Positions 14,087-44,111 of a stretch of DNA of 64,000 nt are shown here, in pieces (the first letter of the stretch is position 1; every line of letters starts with the position of its first letter). The notes beneath the pieces were generated by a model. That model saw only the letters and a list, made by a program, of their open reading frames with translations. It ran no database searches and had not been told where the DNA came from. The translations under genes were made by a program, and so were the position numbers. Source of the stretch: Planctomycetota bacterium (GTDB taxonomy: Bacteria; Planctomycetota; Planctomycetia; Pirellulales; PNKZ01); NCBI GenBank assembly GCA_018242585.1, contig JAFEBQ010000024.1:62001-126000 (forward strand), read 5' to 3'.

Positions 14087-14875
14087 ATGTTGGCCAAACG
14101 TATTATCCCCTGCTTGGACGTGAATGCCGGCCGCGTGGTCAAAGGGACCAAGTTCGTCGAGCTGCGCGACGCCGGAGACCCGGTCGCGGTCGCGGCCCGC
14201 TACGAAGCCGAAGGGGCCGACGAGCTGGTCTTTCTGGACATCACGGCCAGCCACGAAGGTCGGGCGATCATGCTCGACGTGGTCCGCCGGGTCTCCGAGA
14301 CGATCTTCATGCCGTTTACCGTCGGCGGCGGCATCCGCACCCTCGAAGACGCCACCGCCCTAATTACCGCCGGGGCCGAGAAGGTCAGCATCAACTCCGC
14401 CGCCGTCCGCACCCCCGAACTGATCTCGGCCGTGGCCAAGAAGTTCGGCAGTTGCGCCACCGTGGTGAACATCGACCCCAAGCGCGTGGTCCGGGACGGG
14501 CAAACGATCTGTGAAGTGCATATTAACGGGGGGCGGATCGGCACCGGGCTCGAAGCCGTGGCCTGGGCCCGCCGGGTCGAGGAGCTGGGAGCCGGGGAAA
14601 TCGCCCTGACCAGCGTGGATGCCGACGGCACCAAGAACGGCTACGATCTAGAGCTGACGGCCGCGGTCAGCTCGGCCGTGTCGATTCCGGTCGTGGCCAG
14701 CGGCGGCGCAGGGCGGCCGGAACACCTGGCCGACGCCATCCTGTTGGGTAAAGCCGACGCCGCGCTGGCGGCGGGCATTTTCCATTTTGGACAATACACG
14801 ATTCGCGAGACGAAACAGATCATGGCGGCGCGAGGGATTCCGGTTCGCGGGCTCGTCGAGGGACACGCCGCCTAG
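14087..14875 (+). CDS. hisF: Imidazole glycerol phosphate synthase cyclase subunit HisF
   Basis: The 262-residue TIM-barrel protein catalyses the ammonia-dependent cyclisation of PRFAR to imidazole glycerol phosphate and AICAR in histidine biosynthesis, together with the HisH glutaminase. Both catalytic aspartates fall at the canonical positions: Asp11 in CLDV and Asp130 in NIDPKRV. The phosphate-binding loops [10 protein letters not shown] (80-89) and [13 protein letters not shown] are present, as is ASGGAG near the end. No other his gene is nearby. The short spacing to pilT (85 bp) probably reflects gene density. Confidence 0.97.
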
Positions 14876-14960: not shown

Positions 14961-16148
14961 ATGAAACAAGACGCGACTGATACCAATAAGGATCCGATGG
15001 CCGCCCCCTCGATCGACGCGCTGGCGGCCAAGTTCGTCGCCAAAAAAGAAGAACTCGAGATCGACAAGCTGTTCCGCGCGCTGGTCAAGCTGAAGGGGAG
15101 CGACTTGCACCTGAAGGTCGGCCGCCAGCCGATCGTGCGCGTGAATGGCACCTTGCGGCCGCTGAACCGCGACCCGATCGACGACGCCGAAATGGTCCGC
15201 CTGTGCCTGCCGCTGTTGAGCGAGCGCAATCGCAAAATCTACGAAGAGAGCGGCGGCGCCGACTTCGCCTATAGCATCGAAGTCGACGGCACGCCGTGGC
15301 GATTCCGCGTGAACTTGCTGCAACAGTTGGGTCACGTTGGCATGGTGGCTCGCCGCGTGAATCAGTGGATTCCCGACTTCGAAGGGCTAAACCTGCCGCC
15401 GGTGATGGTCGATCTTTGCAAATACAGCCAAGGGATGGTGCTGCTGGCGGGCGTGACCGGCTCGGGCAAAAGCACGACGATCGCGTCGATGCTCAACTGG
15501 GTCAATAAGAACTACAGCAAGCACATCCTCACCCTCGAAGACCCGATCGAATTCGTGTTCACCGAGGACAAGTGTCTGATCAACCAGCGCGAGATCGGCC
15601 TGGACGTGAAGGACTTTGGCATCGGCATGAAGCACGCCGTCCGCGAAGACCCGGACGTCATGCTGGTGGGTGAAATGCGCGACGAGGAAACATTCCTCAC
15701 CGCCATTCACGCGGCCGAGACGGGGCACCTGGTGTTCGGAACCATTCACGCCAGCAGCGCGCCCAGCACGATCGGGCGTATTCTCGACTTGTTCCCGCAA
15801 TCGATGCACTCGTCGCTGCGCAGCGCGATTGCCATGAACATGAAGGCGATCGTCGCGCAGAAGCTGTTGCCGTCGATCAAGGAAGGGGTGGGACGCGTGC
15901 CGACCGTGGAGATCATGACCTTCAACGCCACGGTGCGAAAGCAAATCCTGGAAGAGAAGGACGAAAAACTGGCCGACGTGATCCGCATGTGCGAGAAGGA
16001 AGGCATGCAGGACTTCACGATGAGCCTCAAGGATTTGGTTGACCGGCAACTGATCGATCGGGCCACCGCCTTTGAAGTGGCGCCGAACGTCGAAGCGCTG
16101 AAAATGGCGCTCAAGGGCATCAATGTTTCGCAACCGGGAATTCTGTAA
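14961..16148 (+). CDS. pilT: PilT-type retraction ATPase
   Basis: The 395-residue protein has all PilT/GspE secretion-ATPase motifs intact. These are Walker A GVTGSGKS (164-171), the Asp box TLEDPIEF, Walker B with MLVGEMRD (about 233-240) and the His box TGHLVFGTIHAS. A C-terminal region with the AIRS-like element of PilT is replaced by FPQSMHSSLRSAIAMNMKAI. PilT powers pilus retraction or twitching. The start ATG at 14961 follows GGACGATCGATC, so the ribosome binding site is weak. The stop codon is directly followed by the ATG of the next gene (TAAATG), which points to translational coupling. Confidence 0.9.
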   Translation: MKQDATDTNKDPMAAPSIDALAAKFVAKKEELEIDKLFRALVKLKGSDLHLKVGRQPIVRVNGTLRPLNRDPIDDAEMVRLCLPLLSERNRKIYEESGGADFAYSIEVDGTPWRFRVNLLQQLGHVGMVARRVNQWIPDFEGLNLPPVMVDLCKYSQGMVLLAGVTGSGKSTTIASMLNWVNKNYSKHILTLEDPIEFVFTEDKCLINQREIGLDVKDFGIGMKHAVREDPDVMLVGEMRDEETFLTAIHAAETGHLVFGTIHASSAPSTIGRILDLFPQSMHSSLRSAIAMNMKAIVAQKLLPSIKEGVGRVPTVEIMTFNATVRKQILEEKDEKLADVIRMCEKEGMQDFTMSLKDLVDRQLIDRATAFEVAPNVEALKMALKGINVSQPGIL

Positions 16149-18023
16149 ATGTCGCGTTGTCGGTGCATCGCCATGTTGGGGGCGCTCGCATTCTGCGCCC
16201 TGTTCACTACGTGGGCCACGGCCCAGAACCCTGCCACGCCGGGCAGTACCGCGCCCGGCGCGACGGCCGACGCACCCAGCGACGGCTGGCCCAAGGACTT
16301 GGACCGGCTGACCAATCTGCAACAGCCGACCGCGTTTCAGCGCGGCAAGGGGGGCTATCTGAGCCCCATTCGCCTGGGGCTCTGCTGGCTGGTCTTCCTG
16401 GGTTGGATCGCCACGACCGATTGGGTGAATCGCGACGCCCAGCAGTTGGAAGGGGCGTACTACCGCTGGAACACGATCCTGGTCGCGTCGTTCATGGGGG
16501 CGCTGGTTGTCGTTTGGCTCCTCGATTCAAGCATCATGCTCACGCTGCCGGTGTTGCTGGGGGCCTGGCTCGCGCCTGTGGGCTTGTACGTGTTTCGTCG
16601 CAACTCCACCGTCGGCGATCACGAGAAGGTACTCACGCCGGAACACGTCCGCTTTGTGCTGGCGCCGCATCTCAAGCGGCTGGGCATCAAGATCACCGTC
16701 GAAAAGAAAGCGGTCAAGAAGGCCAAGGACGCCGGGCCGCCGATCGATTTCAACGCCACCGCGAAAGCGACCAAGCCCGAGAACATGGCACTGTCGCTCA
16801 ACGCCAAGGACTCGCCGGGTTTCAAAGAGGCCGGCCTGTTGGTGATCGACGCCCTGCAAAAGCGTGCCAGCCAGATCATGCTCGACTTCACGCGCGAAGG
16901 GACCGTGGTTCGCTACCAGATCGACAGCGTCTGGAGCGACGCCGGCCCGCGCGACCGGCAAACGGCTGACCCGCTGCTGGCCACGCTCAAGTCCGTGGCG
17001 GGAATGAAGGCGGAGGAACGGGCGGCCAAGCAGCGCGGCAAGTTCGAAGCCGTCTATGAAAAGGCCAAGTACCGCCTTAACCTGCAAAGTGGCGGGACCA
17101 AGACGGGCGAGCGAGCCATTGTGCGCATCGACACGGGCGCCGCTCGCAAGGCGCGATTCACCGACCTGAATCTGTCCGCCAAGCAAGTCGAGGATCTGAC
17201 CGCCGCCCTGCAAGAAAAGCAAGGCCTCGTGCTGGTCTCGGCCCCCACGGGGCACGGACTGACCACGTTGATCTCGGCCACGACCGCCTCCATCGATCGC
17301 TTCACGCGCAACGTGATGGCCATCGAAGAAGCCTCGAATCGCGAGATGGAAGTCGAAAACGTCCAGGCCAAAACCTACGACGCCGCCGAAGGTCGCGCGC
17401 CCGACGTGGCGCTGGTCGAAGCGATCCGCGAGTTCCCCGAAGCGATCGTCTTTCCCGAGGTGACCGACGGCAAGGTCTTTGGCATGCTCTGCGAGCAGGT
17501 CAACGAAGGACACATGATCATCGCCGGCCTCCGCGCCCGCGAAGTGGGCGAAGCGCTGCTCAAGGTGCTGATGCTCAAGATTCCGATCAAGGTCGTCGGC
17601 AGCACGGTGACCGCGGTCGTCAACCAGCGGTTGGTCCGCAAGCTATGCACCGATTGCCGCGAGGCCTACGACGCCACGCCGCAGATGCTGCAACAGTTCC
17701 GGCTGCCCGCCGACAAGGTGACCCAATTCTATCGGCCGCCCCAAGCGGACGCCGCGGGCAAAAAGAAGGCCGAGTGCAAATCATGCGGCGGCACCGGATA
17801 CCGTGGCGTGACGGGGCTGGTCGAGGTGTTGTTCATGAACGACGCCATGCGAGCCGCGCTGGCCAATCTGCCCAAGGTCGAACCGGCCAAGCACGTCGAC
17901 TACCTGCGCCAGTCGGCACAGAAAGCCGGCATGCGCACGCTGCAAGAAGAAGGCATCGTGCTGCTGGCCCAAGGCATCACGTCGCTGCCAGAACTAAAAC
18001 GCGCCCTGACCGAGAAAGAATAA
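16149..18023 (+). CDS. Membrane-anchored GspE/PilB-like protein with degenerate ATPase motifs
   Basis: The 624-residue protein has an N-terminal signal-like segment, two or three further hydrophobic segments (about residues 75-145) and a C-terminal GspE/PilB fold. The Walker A position reads APTGHGLTT: the invariant Lys is Leu371. The Asp box is EEA instead of EDP. The Walker B region reads EAIVFPEVTD, so only the Glu is kept. The second His of the His box is lost (GHMIIAGLR). The zinc tetracysteine module typical of GspE/PilB is intact (CTDC and CKSC). It is coupled to pilT with zero spacing. I infer a structural or regulatory paralogue that cannot hydrolyse ATP in the normal way. Confidence 0.85.
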   Translation: MSRCRCIAMLGALAFCALFTTWATAQNPATPGSTAPGATADAPSDGWPKDLDRLTNLQQPTAFQRGKGGYLSPIRLGLCWLVFLGWIATTDWVNRDAQQLEGAYYRWNTILVASFMGALVVVWLLDSSIMLTLPVLLGAWLAPVGLYVFRRNSTVGDHEKVLTPEHVRFVLAPHLKRLGIKITVEKKAVKKAKDAGPPIDFNATAKATKPENMALSLNAKDSPGFKEAGLLVIDALQKRASQIMLDFTREGTVVRYQIDSVWSDAGPRDRQTADPLLATLKSVAGMKAEERAAKQRGKFEAVYEKAKYRLNLQSGGTKTGERAIVRIDTGAARKARFTDLNLSAKQVEDLTAALQEKQGLVLVSAPTGHGLTTLISATTASIDRFTRNVMAIEEASNREMEVENVQAKTYDAAEGRAPDVALVEAIREFPEAIVFPEVTDGKVFGMLCEQVNEGHMIIAGLRAREVGEALLKVLMLKIPIKVVGSTVTAVVNQRLVRKLCTDCREAYDATPQMLQQFRLPADKVTQFYRPPQADAAGKKKAECKSCGGTGYRGVTGLVEVLFMNDAMRAALANLPKVEPAKHVDYLRQSAQKAGMRTLQEEGIVLLAQGITSLPELKRALTEKE

Positions 18024-18205: not shown

Positions 18206-18793
18206 ATGTCCATCATCTATCCCGTCCTGCTGCTGTTGATCCCCTTTGCCACGTTCGGATTGATGCGTCCGGCCGGACTGTGGGGAAACCTGATCGCGCT
18301 GGTCAATCTGTTGATAGCGGCGCTGTTGGCGATGAACTATTTCGAGTGGGCGGCCGGGTTCCTGGTCGACATGATGCCGTCGCTGGCTTATTACGCTGAC
18401 TTCATGGCCCTGTGGGGGATCTTCGCCGGCGTGGCGTTTCTGCTCAAGGCAATCACTGACCGAGTGTCGCTGGTCCGGGTCCGATTCTCCAAGCCGGTCG
18501 AAGGCCTCGGCAATGCCGCGGCGCTGCTGGCGATTGGCTGGCTGATGCTCTGCTTCACGGCCGCGTCGATTCACGTGGCGCCGCTGGGGCGGACGGCCGT
18601 ATTCGATGGCTTCACGCCGACGCAGGGCGCGCTGTGGGGCATGTTCCCCGATCGGCTCTGGCTGGGCCTAGTCCAGCGCACGTCCGAGGGGGCGTTCGCC
18701 GACGGCGAAATCTTCGACAAGGACGGCTCATTCCTGGTCCGCTACGCCGCCCGCCGCGAACTCTTTGAACGCCCCACGCCGAAGGCGCCCTAG
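18206..18793 (+). CDS. CvpA family membrane protein
   Basis: With the ATG at 18206 the protein has 195 residues. The first hydrophobic segments (IIYPVLLLLIPFATFGL, WGNLIALVNLLIAALLA, LWGIFAGVAFLLKAI and AALLAIGWLMLCFTAAS) give four probable membrane spans, the pattern of CvpA (colicin V production) proteins. The C-terminal tail (about 60 residues) is soluble and charged. An upstream in-frame start at 18113 lies inside the CAATGACCAA repeat and encodes unlikely residues, so it was rejected. No partner gene is adjacent. Planctomycetes often carry such a protein without a known role. Confidence 0.75.
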   Translation: MSIIYPVLLLLIPFATFGLMRPAGLWGNLIALVNLLIAALLAMNYFEWAAGFLVDMMPSLAYYADFMALWGIFAGVAFLLKAITDRVSLVRVRFSKPVEGLGNAAALLAIGWLMLCFTAASIHVAPLGRTAVFDGFTPTQGALWGMFPDRLWLGLVQRTSEGAFADGEIFDKDGSFLVRYAARRELFERPTPKAP

Positions 18794-39269: not shown

Positions 39270-42200
39270 ATGCAGGATTTGAAACAGGCCGTCGCTCGAT
39301 TCGGCGCCGAAGCGGCTGCCAAGCTGGCCAACCCCAGCGCCACGGGCGAGCCCGAAGATCAGCTCCGCGCCCCGCTCGAAGGGCTCTTCGCCGATCTGGC
39401 CGAGCAATGTGGCTTCAAGCGCGAGTGGGTTACTGCCGTCGGCGAAACATCCCTCTCCGCGCTCAAGACGCGCCCCGACTACGCCATCACGCTGCGCAAC
39501 GTGCTGGTCGGCTACGTCGAAGTCAAAGCCCCCGGCAAAGGAGCCGACCCGCGCCGCTACAAGGGGCACGACAAAGACCAATGGGAACGACTGCAATCGC
39601 TTCCCAACTTGTTGTACACCGACGGCAATGCGTTCAGTCTGTGGCAGAACGGCGAGCTGGTCGGCTCGATCGTCGAGCTATCGGGGGACATCGAGACCTC
39701 CGGCGCCAAGCTCGCCGCCCCGCCCGAGTTGCTCGCGCGGTTTGCCGACTTCCTCCGCTGGGAACCCATTCCGCCCAAGTCCGCCGCCGAGCTGGCCCAC
39801 GTCGCCGCTCGGCTCTGCCGACTGCTGCGCGACGAAGCCACCGAGCAATTGGCCGAGAAAAGTCCCGCCCTCACGGCGCTGGCCGCCGACTGGCGCAAGC
39901 TTCTGTTTCCCGAAGCCAACGACCAGCAATTCGCCGACGGCTATGCCCAGGCCGTCACCTTCGGCTTGCTGATGGCCCGCTCGAGCAACATCCAACTGGC
40001 CGACGGGCTGGACCTGGTCGGTAAACATCTGGGCAAGACCAACTCGCTGATCGGTGCGGCCTTGCGATTGTTGACCGACGAAGTCGACAACGAAGCCACA
40101 CTCAAGACCTCGCTGCGAACGCTCGTCCGCGTGCTCGACGCTGTCGACTGGCAAGCGATCAGCCAAGGCAAACCGGACGCCTGGCTCTACTTCTACGAAG
40201 ACTTTCTGGCGGAATATGACAACGCACTGCGCAAGCTGACCGGCTCGTATTACACGCCCCCCGAAGTCGTCGAGCCGATGATCCGCCTGGTCGACGACGC
40301 CCTGCGCCGCCACTTTGGCCGCAGCGCTGGCCTGGCCTCGGCCGACGTCACGTTGGCCGACCCCGCCGTCGGCACCGGCACGTTTATCCTGGGCGTGCTG
40401 CGCAGCATCGAAGCCGCCGTCGAAGCCGACCAGGGAGCGGGCGCCGTCCCCCAGGCTATCGAGTCGGCCATCGCGCGGCTGATCGCGTTCGAGATGCAGC
40501 TCGGTCCCTTCGCCGTGGCCCAGTTGCGCATCCACGCCGAGCTGCTCCGCATGATCGGCAAGCCGCCGCGAGCGGCATCGCGGATGTTCGTCACCGACAC
40601 GCTGGGCAACCCCTATGCCGAGGTCGAAGAGCTAGGCTCCCTGTACCGGACCATCTCCGAATCGCGGCTCAAGGCCAACGAGATCAAACGCAAGGAACCG
40701 ATCACCGTCGTGATCGGCAACCCGCCCTACAAGGAAAAGGCCAAGGGGCGCGGCGGTTGGATCGAAGAAGAACGGCTCAACCAATGGCTGCCGCCGGCCG
40801 ATTGGGGCGTGGGAGCCCACGCCAAGCATCTGCGCAACCTGTACGTCTATTTCTGGCGCTGGGCCACTTGGAAGGTCTTTGACCACGATCCCAAGAACGA
40901 CACCGGCATCGTCTGCTTTATCACGGTGGCGGGCTTTCTGAACGGGCCGGGCTTTCAGCGGATGCGCGACGATCTGCGCCGCAAGGCCGATCGGATTTGG
41001 ATCATCGATTGTTCCCCCGAGGGGCACCAGCCCGACGTCCCCACGCGCATTTTTCAGGCGGTCCAGCAACCGGTCTGCATCGTGCTGGCCGCGCGGTCCA
41101 AGCAAAAAGCCGCCGACCAGCCGGCCACGGTCAAATACACCGCCCTCCCCGCGGGGAAGCGCGAGGAGAAGTTCGCGGCACTGGCCAAGCTGCGGCTCGA
41201 AGCGAAGATCTGGCAGGATTGCTCGACCGACTGGCGCGCGCCGTTTCTCCCCGCCGCCACGGGTGACTGGGCCGGCTACCCGGCGCTCGACGAGTTATTC
41301 GCGTACAACGGCTCAGGCGTGCAAACCAAGCGAGTCTGGGTCTTCGCGCCCGATCCGGAATCGCTGGAACGCCGCTGGATAAAACTTATTCAGGCCCCGA
41401 TCGAGAAAAAGGAGGACCTGTTTCACCCAACGCTGCGTGGTGGCAAGCCTGCTGACCGGCATATTCGATCGATCGTTCGAATCCCTTTACCGGGCTTCAG
41501 GCTCGCGACAAAACCGCTAATTGACGAAAAGGGCGATTGTGCAACGCCAGTGCGTTATGCGTTCCGGTCCTTTAACCGGATGTGGATAATCCCGGACCCG
41601 AGAGTCATTACGCAACCCAATGCAGACCTTTGGAGTTCGTACTCCGAACGGCAAGTGTACATGACGGCCCCTTCAGATCGATCGCCGACAATTGGGCCTG
41701 CATTTACCTTTTCCGCTTACGTTCCCGATCTCCACCATTACAACGGCCGAGGTGGACGGGTGTTTCCCCTCTGGCGTGATGCGGCCGCGACGACCCCCAA
41801 TCTGCCGCCGAAGCTGCTCGACTTTCTGACCAAGAAATACAAGCGGCTCGTGACCGCCGAGGATTTCCTGGCCTATCTGGCCGGCGTGGCCGCCAGCCCG
41901 GCCTACACGGCGCGGTTTCAGGACGATCTGGCCCAGCCCGGCTTGCGGATCCCTATCACCGAGCAGCCCAAGCTGTTCACCGCGGCGGTCGAGTTGGGGC
42001 GGCGCGTGATCTGGCTGCACACGTTCGGCGAGCGCTTTGCCGACGCCGGGGACGACCGACCGGCGGGTCCGCCGCGGTTGCCCAAGGATCGCGCGCCGCG
42101 GATTCCCAAGCAGGGGGCCATTCCCGACGACCCAGACAACATGCCCGACGAAATCGACTACGACGAACCGCAGCAGCGCCTGATCGTCGGTCGCGGCTAC

Positions 42201-42485
42201 ATCGAACACGTGCCCGCCGCGGTGTGGCAATACGAGGTGTCGGGCAAGCGGGTGTTGACGCAATGGTTCAGCTACCGTAAGAAAAACCGCGAACGCCCCA
42301 TCATCGGCGACCGCCGGCCGCCGTCGAAGCTGGGGGACATCCAGCCCGACCACTGGCTGGCCGAGTACACGACGGAATTGCTCAACGTCTTGAATGTCTT
42401 GGCGTTGCTGGTCGAGCTGGAACCCGCCCAGGCGAAACTTCTGGAGGCGATTTGTGAAGGACCGACACTTGATTTCCGTGGATGA
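39270..42485 (+). CDS. Fused nuclease-N6-adenine methyltransferase, type IIG/ISP-like
   Basis: The 1,071-residue protein has an N-terminal PD-(D/E)xK-like nuclease signature (Asp70 in RPDYAI, Glu84-x-Lys86 in YVEVKAPG). A helical region follows, then a gamma-class methyltransferase domain with DPAVGTGTF (motif I, 364-372) and NPPY (484-487). The C-terminal part should hold target recognition. No helicase motifs were found, so it is a single-chain type IIG-like enzyme and not a full ISP translocase. The segment about 700-825 (41370-41745) is much lower in GC than its flanks. The gene sits between 367-bp direct repeats and overlaps a small acidic protein gene by 32 bp. Confidence 0.88.
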   Translation: MQDLKQAVARFGAEAAAKLANPSATGEPEDQLRAPLEGLFADLAEQCGFKREWVTAVGETSLSALKTRPDYAITLRNVLVGYVEVKAPGKGADPRRYKGHDKDQWERLQSLPNLLYTDGNAFSLWQNGELVGSIVELSGDIETSGAKLAAPPELLARFADFLRWEPIPPKSAAELAHVAARLCRLLRDEATEQLAEKSPALTALAADWRKLLFPEANDQQFADGYAQAVTFGLLMARSSNIQLADGLDLVGKHLGKTNSLIGAALRLLTDEVDNEATLKTSLRTLVRVLDAVDWQAISQGKPDAWLYFYEDFLAEYDNALRKLTGSYYTPPEVVEPMIRLVDDALRRHFGRSAGLASADVTLADPAVGTGTFILGVLRSIEAAVEADQGAGAVPQAIESAIARLIAFEMQLGPFAVAQLRIHAELLRMIGKPPRAASRMFVTDTLGNPYAEVEELGSLYRTISESRLKANEIKRKEPITVVIGNPPYKEKAKGRGGWIEEERLNQWLPPADWGVGAHAKHLRNLYVYFWRWATWKVFDHDPKNDTGIVCFITVAGFLNGPGFQRMRDDLRRKADRIWIIDCSPEGHQPDVPTRIFQAVQQPVCIVLAARSKQKAADQPATVKYTALPAGKREEKFAALAKLRLEAKIWQDCSTDWRAPFLPAATGDWAGYPALDELFAYNGSGVQTKRVWVFAPDPESLERRWIKLIQAPIEKKEDLFHPTLRGGKPADRHIRSIVRIPLPGFRLATKPLIDEKGDCATPVRYAFRSFNRMWIIPDPRVITQPNADLWSSYSERQVYMTAPSDRSPTIGPAFTFSAYVPDLHHYNGRGGRVFPLWRDAAATTPNLPPKLLDFLTKKYKRLVTAEDFLAYLAGVAASPAYTARFQDDLAQPGLRIPITEQPKLFTAAVELGRRVIWLHTFGERFADAGDDRPAGPPRLPKDRAPRIPKQGAIPDDPDNMPDEIDYDEPQQRLIVGRGYIEHVPAAVWQYEVSGKRVLTQWFSYRKKNRERPIIGDRRPPSKLGDIQPDHWLAEYTTELLNVLNVLALLVELEPAQAKLLEAICEGPTLDFRG

Positions 42486-43073: not shown

Positions 43074-44111
43074 TCACATGACCTTGTCCAGCATGCCGAA
43101 GTAAAACGACGCCAGGCGGAAGATCACAATCGTGATCAACGCCGCCACCACGGCCCACACGGCAAAGCCGGCCACAGTGGCCAGCGCCGCCAGCGCTCGC
43201 TGGGCTCGATCGTTGTACTGCTCGGAAAGATTGGCCAACGTCTCGCTCAGCCGGCCGCTCTTCTCGCCCACCTCGACGGCGTCGAGAAAGTCGGTCCGAA
43301 ACGCGCCGGTCGCCGCCAGCGCCTCGGTGATCTCTTGCCCCTTGCGAACCCGCAGCGTGACCGAGTCGATGTGATCGGTGTAATGGGCGTTCTGCGTGCT
43401 GCGCAGACTCATCGGAATGGCCTTCAATACATCCATGCCCGAGCCATACGTCAGCTCCAGCGACCAGGCGAACCGGGCCAGGGCCAACGTCTCGAACGTG
43501 TTGCCGATGACCGGCACCAGAAACAGCCCGCGCTGCAGCGGCCGCGCCCAGAAGACACCGCGCCGCGTCGCCTGATATACAACGACCAACACCACGGCAA
43601 TCACGGCCAGCACCGAGACGTACACCAACACGCCATGCGTTCCCATCAGCCCCAGGCCCAACGGGTCAAGGCGATCCTTCTTGGGAACCCCGTCTTGAAA
43701 CACGCCGAGCAACCAGATCAACAGCCCCACCACCCCCAGAGCGGCGAACAACTGGACCAGCGGCCAGGTGATGCTTTGCACGAACTGCCGACGCAGCTTC
43801 AATTGCAGCTCGTAATGCTCGGCCAGCGCTCGCAGCGTCTCGGCCAGGTGCCCGGTCGCGTCGCCCAGCGAGACCATCTCGTGAAACAGCCGGGGGAAGT
43901 AGCTGCCCGTGGCGGCCACGGCCGCGGTGACCGATTCGCCGCGAGCGACGGCCTGGTAGACCTGGTCCATGTGGCGGCGCACGGCGCGCGGCGAGCGTCC
44001 TTCGGCCTCGCGCTGAAAAGCCTTGCGCAGCTCGATCCCGCTGGTCAGCGCCGTCGAAACGCGCCGACAGAGTTGTTCAAGATCAAAGAGACTGATCCGG
44101 GCGGAGAACAT
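43074..44111 (-). CDS. Type II secretion/type IV pilus inner-membrane protein, GspF/PilC-like
   Basis: The 345-residue protein has the duplicated GspF layout. Each repeat has a helical cytoplasmic domain (RVSTALTSGIELRKAFQREA and ARFAWSLELTYGSGMDVLKA) followed by membrane spans (LVQLFAALGVVGLLIWLLG, LVYVSVLAVIAVVLVVVY, AGFAVWAVVAALITIVIF). The motif VEVGEKSGRLSETLANLSEQ is typical. The N terminus reads well from the ATG at 44111. It may serve with pilT (14961), though the two are 28 kb apart. No other secretion gene lies next to it. Confidence 0.88.
   Translation of the reverse strand: MFSARISLFDLEQLCRRVSTALTSGIELRKAFQREAEGRSPRAVRRHMDQVYQAVARGESVTAAVAATGSYFPRLFHEMVSLGDATGHLAETLRALAEHYELQLKLRRQFVQSITWPLVQLFAALGVVGLLIWLLGVFQDGVPKKDRLDPLGLGLMGTHGVLVYVSVLAVIAVVLVVVYQATRRGVFWARPLQRGLFLVPVIGNTFETLALARFAWSLELTYGSGMDVLKAIPMSLRSTQNAHYTDHIDSVTLRVRKGQEITEALAATGAFRTDFLDAVEVGEKSGRLSETLANLSEQYNDRAQRALAALATVAGFAVWAVVAALITIVIFRLASFYFGMLDKVM

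Follow-up and report, generated by a model that had tools for sequence, protein, structure and literature searches.

Based on sequence, residue conservation, selection and structure prediction, we identified in a 64,000-nucleotide stretch of planctomycete DNA (the window) a gene whose product, P1 (624 aa; positions 16149–18023, + strand), is supported as a GspE-like pseudo-ATPase encoded beside an intact PilT, its inactivity being judged from its residues. The PilB core fold, a tetracysteine module and several inter-domain and C-terminal invariants of P1 are under purifying selection, as is, in most lineages, its three-helix membrane anchor, and the ATP site is dismantled across the whole order Pirellulales. 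In our judgement it is somewhat probable that P1 is a conserved, inner-membrane-anchored pseudo-ATPase descended from a motor of the PilB/GspE clade and now the dedicated partner of the adjacent retraction ATPase, PilT2.

To our knowledge, secretion and pilus motors are regarded as obligate ATPases, and in the open-access literature we found no description of pseudo-ATPase pilus motors or of a planctomycete GspE with CvpA. A dead motor that is selected order-wide and tied to an active PilT provides a natural experiment for finding the parts of the PilB ring that are needed besides hydrolysis. Planctomycetes bear pilus-like fibres and crateriform structures that are unexplained (PMC5394234), and the gene cassette around P1, itself uncharacterised in planctomycetes, may, by way of speculation, bear on both.

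The P1 gene, its cassette and its protein

A preliminary description of this DNA had placed a GspE-like protein next to pilT, and its frame, coordinates and adjacency were all correct: the ATG of P1 is the base immediately after the TAA of pilT, with stop and start contiguous at 16148/16149, as expected for a PilU-like gene position. The only Pfam domain above cut-off is T2SSE (residues 231–618, 1.2e-44, 152.9 bits), and P1 falls below the NCBIfam cut-offs of both the PilB equivalog TIGR02538 (157.9 bits against 675.65) and the GspE equivalog TIGR02533 (159.1 bits against 630.25). It also scores far below the cut-off of the PilT/PilU family TIGR01420 (36.5 bits against 319) and carries the tetracysteine, unlike PilU. 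The N-terminal MshEN/T2SSE_N domain is present in the three canonical, intact PilB/GspE paralogues of the genome, to which P1 is only 25–27% identical, and absent from P1 and from its intact relative at locus L009. Elsewhere the genome carries a canonical type IV pilus set (PilB, PilT, PilB, PilC), a T2SS-like set and three Tad-type sets.

The upstream neighbour, PilT2 (14961–16148, +), exceeds the TIGR01420 cut-off (386.4 bits against 319.1) and retains every motif of a PilT/PilU-family retraction ATPase (GVTGSGKSTT, LEDPIEF, DPDVMLVGEMRD and TGHLVFGTIH), so that the earlier view of an intact PilT holds. Its assignment as PilU was rejected, as its closest solved relatives are PilT proteins, with PilU lower. 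PilT2 was found, linked or unlinked, in 26/26 P1-bearing genomes tested; linkage to pilT has been lost in several relatives having an intact P1. Before PilT2 lies hisF (14087–14875, +), identified from its sequence as an imidazole glycerol phosphate synthase subunit gene and present in 68/98 P1 loci, where it almost always shares the strand and usually lies ~3.8 kb before the end of P1; it is probably only a positional marker. Downstream is the gene for a CvpA-like membrane protein of 195 aa (18206–18793, +), found behind P1 in 65 of the 98 loci, including those of intact-ATPase relatives. Pfam Colicin_V was detected in 19/20 homologues of this protein (best 2e-11), and a Foldseek search of its AlphaFold2 model (pLDDT 90.8) against the PDB gave no significant match. 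The order hisF-pilT2-P1-CvpA is conserved across the phylum, in dead and intact lineages alike, and no pilin or further pilus-machine gene lies within the cassette. The divergence of P1 correlates with that of PilT2 beyond hisF (partial r 0.63, 36 loci; 0.31 for the CvpA-like gene), which is weak support for a partnership because all of these genes are neighbours and contact is not fully separable from shared operon history. In Pirellulales, the gene after the CvpA-like one often encodes a DUF4190-like membrane protein (L069:4716–5426, − strand, and 27 other loci).

An AlphaFold2 model of P1, built with 49 orthologues from the window and from genome-contig loci as input, has a pLDDT of 87.4 and a pTM of 0.74. 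Foldseek matched it to 5tsh_C, a PilB with AMP-PNP bound (TMt 0.90), and VIA-align against three PilB crystal structures gave Z scores of 39.9–40 (best 40.0, with an rmsd of 2.5 over 377 aligned residues). Three membrane helices are predicted ahead of the ATPase core, at residues 73–99, 104–124 and 129–154 (16365–16610, +), in the place that the MshEN domain takes in canonical PilB/GspE, and W86, W92, D96, W107 and N108 are conserved in this region. From sequence and model, we infer that the protein begins with a stretch resembling a signal peptide, that its N-terminus is periplasmic and that three spans lead to a cytoplasmic core. The preliminary description had regarded the spans as an addition, which has the timing wrong: helices are also predicted in the intact relatives, where checked, which makes the anchor ancestral and the loss of catalysis a later event. 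In Pirellula/Laterigemmans-type P1 (L026, L121, L135, L146) the helices have been lost from a protein still encoded behind pilT, and anchoring is therefore not universal.

The dismantled ATP site in Pirellulales

Residues were counted over 127 distinct Pirellulales ATPase domains, keeping in mind that these sequences are not phylogenetically independent. The Walker A motif of P1 reads, as previously reported, APTGHGLTT (residues 365–373; 17241–17267, +), with a leucine, Leu371, in the lysine position; its codon is CTG at 17259–17261. No lysine occurs in this column (0/127), which holds L in 104 sequences, Y in 11, F in 4, M in 4, A in 2 and V in 2. A sequencing error or misframe behind Leu371 is ruled out by the agreement of these 127 relatives. 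A lysine in orthologues had been named beforehand as evidence against the loss; within Pirellulales none keeps it and orthologues of other orders do, which points to an inactivation event and not to a misaligned motif. The last P-loop glycine, Gly370, is invariant (127/127), and the first is kept in 11/127.

The claim that the Asp box, Walker B and HIS box are altered as well stands for only part of each motif. In the Asp box the Mg-binding glutamate E393 is kept in P1 (Glu in 109 of the 127 sequences) and D394 is changed to E. Walker B, EAIVFPEVTD in place of a DVxxVGEIRD-type motif in the alignment (residues 431–440; 17439–17468, +), retains the catalytic glutamate E437, with the preceding glycine replaced by proline and the arginine of GEIRD by threonine; position 437 is acidic in 107/127 Pirellulales sequences (Asp 85, Glu 22). 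The altered HIS box, likewise located by alignment (residues 455–462; 17511–17534, +), keeps H455 and has lost the histidine that contacts the gamma-phosphate (R462 in P1), and the two HIS-box histidines survive in only 9/127 and 8/127 sequences. With R271 and R286 of PilB as reference for the arginine fingers (PMC5424180) and equivalence inferred from alignment spacing, the first position is Asn311 in P1 (17079–17081, +) and Arg in intact relatives, and the second, R326, is kept. Most Pirellulales sequences have lost both fingers, which survive in 21/127 and 14/127. The zinc-type tetracysteine module (C500, C503, C543 and C546; 17646–17786, +), earlier described as intact, is present in P1 and invariant in all 127 sequences of the order.

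A P1 orthologue was detected in 366/396 Pirellulales genomes (E 1e-45), with named records including Bythopirellula, Botrimarina, Pirellula, Thermogutta, Mariniblastus and others; a first scan of genome contigs with P1 itself as query gave no match. Between close pairs of dead copies dN/dS was mostly 0.02–0.18, commonly about 0.03–0.1, similar to intact copies. A decaying pseudogene is rejected by these ratios together with the order-wide retention.

Two dead copies stand in tandem after pilT in some Pirellulaceae and in one f3 genome. Such tandem pseudo-ATPases were seen at L111, L127, L130, L133 and L161, between pilT and the first-found P1, and at L286:4814–9133, and every tandem copy read lacks the Walker A lysine. 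Where f100 genomes own a further, intact copy with a membrane anchor, the one linked to pilT is dead all the same; at L079, from one f100 genome (530–2269 and 5644–7470), an intact PilB-like gene precedes the dead, pilT-linked one by ~3.4 kb. In Pirellulales, the dead state is tied to the pilT-linked slot. Genomes of f4 (L193, L196–L199) carry an extra soluble dead PilB-like copy of ~440 aa, which in G024 (L198) has three genes similar to T2SSF in the next few kb.

Origin and probable repeated loss of catalysis

Intact ATPases occupy this slot in other orders and classes. Within the same class, all four motifs (Walker A, Asp box, Walker B, HIS box) are essentially intact in the slot ATPases of f111, f112 and f113, G689 excepted; the ATPases of f4, f34, f48 and f52 are intact too. 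The membrane-anchored PilB-like ATPases of f4, f111, f112, f113, f34 and f52 share with P1 the membrane helices, the tetracysteine and a place behind pilT2 and/or before the CvpA-like gene, but differ from it in that all four motifs are complete. In f77, f72 and f50 the place after pilT is taken by a second dead lineage, with Walker A motifs reading GPAGSGRTT, GPKKSGVTT and GQAGTGVTS, respectively.

In a tree of the adjacent PilT, Pirellulales joins f4 (99/100), and a grouping of Pirellulales with f77 is rejected (p = 2e-12). A first quick P1 tree grouped the dead lineages at 80%; with the catalytic columns removed, holding Pirellulales with f4 gave a p-AU of 0.383, P1 alone being undecided, and with wider sampling two changes of the lysine state were needed. 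Keeping in mind that the P1 tree alone is no proof, we favour the interpretation that catalysis was lost at least twice, probably independently, because of the PilT tree, the cassette position common to the intact relatives and the two lysine-state changes. A single ancestral loss was considered and set aside on the same three grounds. It seems that one membrane-anchored ancestor gave rise to the dead state on more than one occasion. The ATPase of G689 (f111; L296:5502–7355, +), in the same slot, has kept the Walker A lysine and lost the catalytic glutamate and the HIS box; it is a third, partial case and possibly an intermediate of inactivation.

Candidate roles of P1 beside PilT2

Linkage, co-occurrence, correlated divergence and the PilB-type fold suggest, in line with the preliminary description, that P1 may act as a scaffold or adaptor for PilT, or as its regulator. 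In this model the helices of P1 would hold it to the inner membrane, where it would still assemble a ring like that of PilB, or a platform that binds a ring, and would dock with the PilT2 hexamer and a platform protein, possibly also with the CvpA-like membrane protein; PilT2 would do all the hydrolysis, with P1 providing position, retention or gating of the motor. The nearest precedent in function is the PilT/PilU pair: PilT with a dead Walker A remains able to bind PilU and to support retraction driven by PilU (PMC6821130, PMC6762196). That pair is the mirror image of our proposal, as there the ATPase-dead PilT ring is the obligatory docking partner of active PilU. PilU resembles P1 in that its gene lies directly 3' of pilT, in the pairing of two motor proteins and in that one partner can be ATPase-dead; PilU, however, is PilT-like, lacks the tetracysteine and has an intact Walker A, whereas P1 is PilB-like, membrane-anchored and dead. 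With PilB/GspE ATPases P1 has in common the core N2D-CTD fold (Z 40 to PilB), the zinc tetracysteine, the conserved GER and a C-terminal G-T-E motif, but it differs from them in having no Walker A lysine, in the loss of most arginine fingers and HIS-box residues, in its three membrane helices instead of MshEN and in its gene position behind pilT.

Counting against a purely structural partnership, ATP binding is possible, given invariant Gly370 and the E393 and E437 kept in P1. These residues, with H455 and the order-wide conservation of Glu393 and of an acidic residue at 437, would also fit a regulated, low-activity ATPase that binds nucleotide or hydrolyses slowly via a non-canonical site. 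We regard this as improbable, since the lysine is missing throughout the order, the first P-loop glycine, both arginine fingers and the HIS box are mostly lost, and separate lineages have lost largely the same set of residues. The degeneration of most catalytic motifs could likewise suggest a relic decaying after loss of function, but with open frames, low dN/dS and retention in most genomes of the order, together with the invariant cysteines and a high-confidence fold, this has almost no likelihood.

The main rival to the partnership with PilT2 is signalling, in which P1 would be a relative of PilB that stays permanently apo-like, free of nucleotide, and relays the state of the pilus or envelope, for example to surface-polysaccharide or attachment control, without touching motor mechanics. 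In Myxococcus, a PilB unable to hydrolyse ATP signals for exopolysaccharide production in the absence of pilus assembly, and the conformation that signals is apparently the nucleotide-free one (PMC5544727). The N-terminal stretch and modelled membrane helices of P1 might suit sensing, and since MshEN is absent, c-di-GMP control via that domain has been lost, which fits the same reading. No conserved signalling gene lies beside P1, however, its constant neighbour being pilT, and we hold signalling to be unlikely. Poorer still are the prospects of a dominant-negative subunit that enters mixed rings and inhibits or tunes canonical PilB/GspE, unrelated to PilT2: the core fold is that of PilB and the genome has three intact paralogues with which to mix, but P1 is linked to pilT and not to pilB, its identity to those paralogues is low and, with an anchor of its own, it is less likely to mix with them.

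Returning to P1 as partner of PilT2, a wider proposal can be offered tentatively, with more doubt than confidence. Planctomycetota may possess a PilT-centred envelope machine composed of PilT2, the anchored PilB-like protein and the CvpA-like protein, in which, for two lineages or more, an obligate pseudo-ATPase would occupy the assembly-motor position and PilT2 alone would power a non-canonical filament or uptake device, not a normal type IV pilus. An orphan T2SSF protein could belong to the same machine. The window encodes one such PilC/GspF-like platform protein (345 aa; 43074–44111, −), with no ATPase gene beside it and a clear orthologue in 21/21 Planctomycetia genomes tested, and it is a possible platform for PilT2 and P1. 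Elsewhere, at 39270–42485 (+), the window encodes a 1071-aa putative fused restriction/DNA-methyltransferase with an NPPY-type motif, recognised by reading only.
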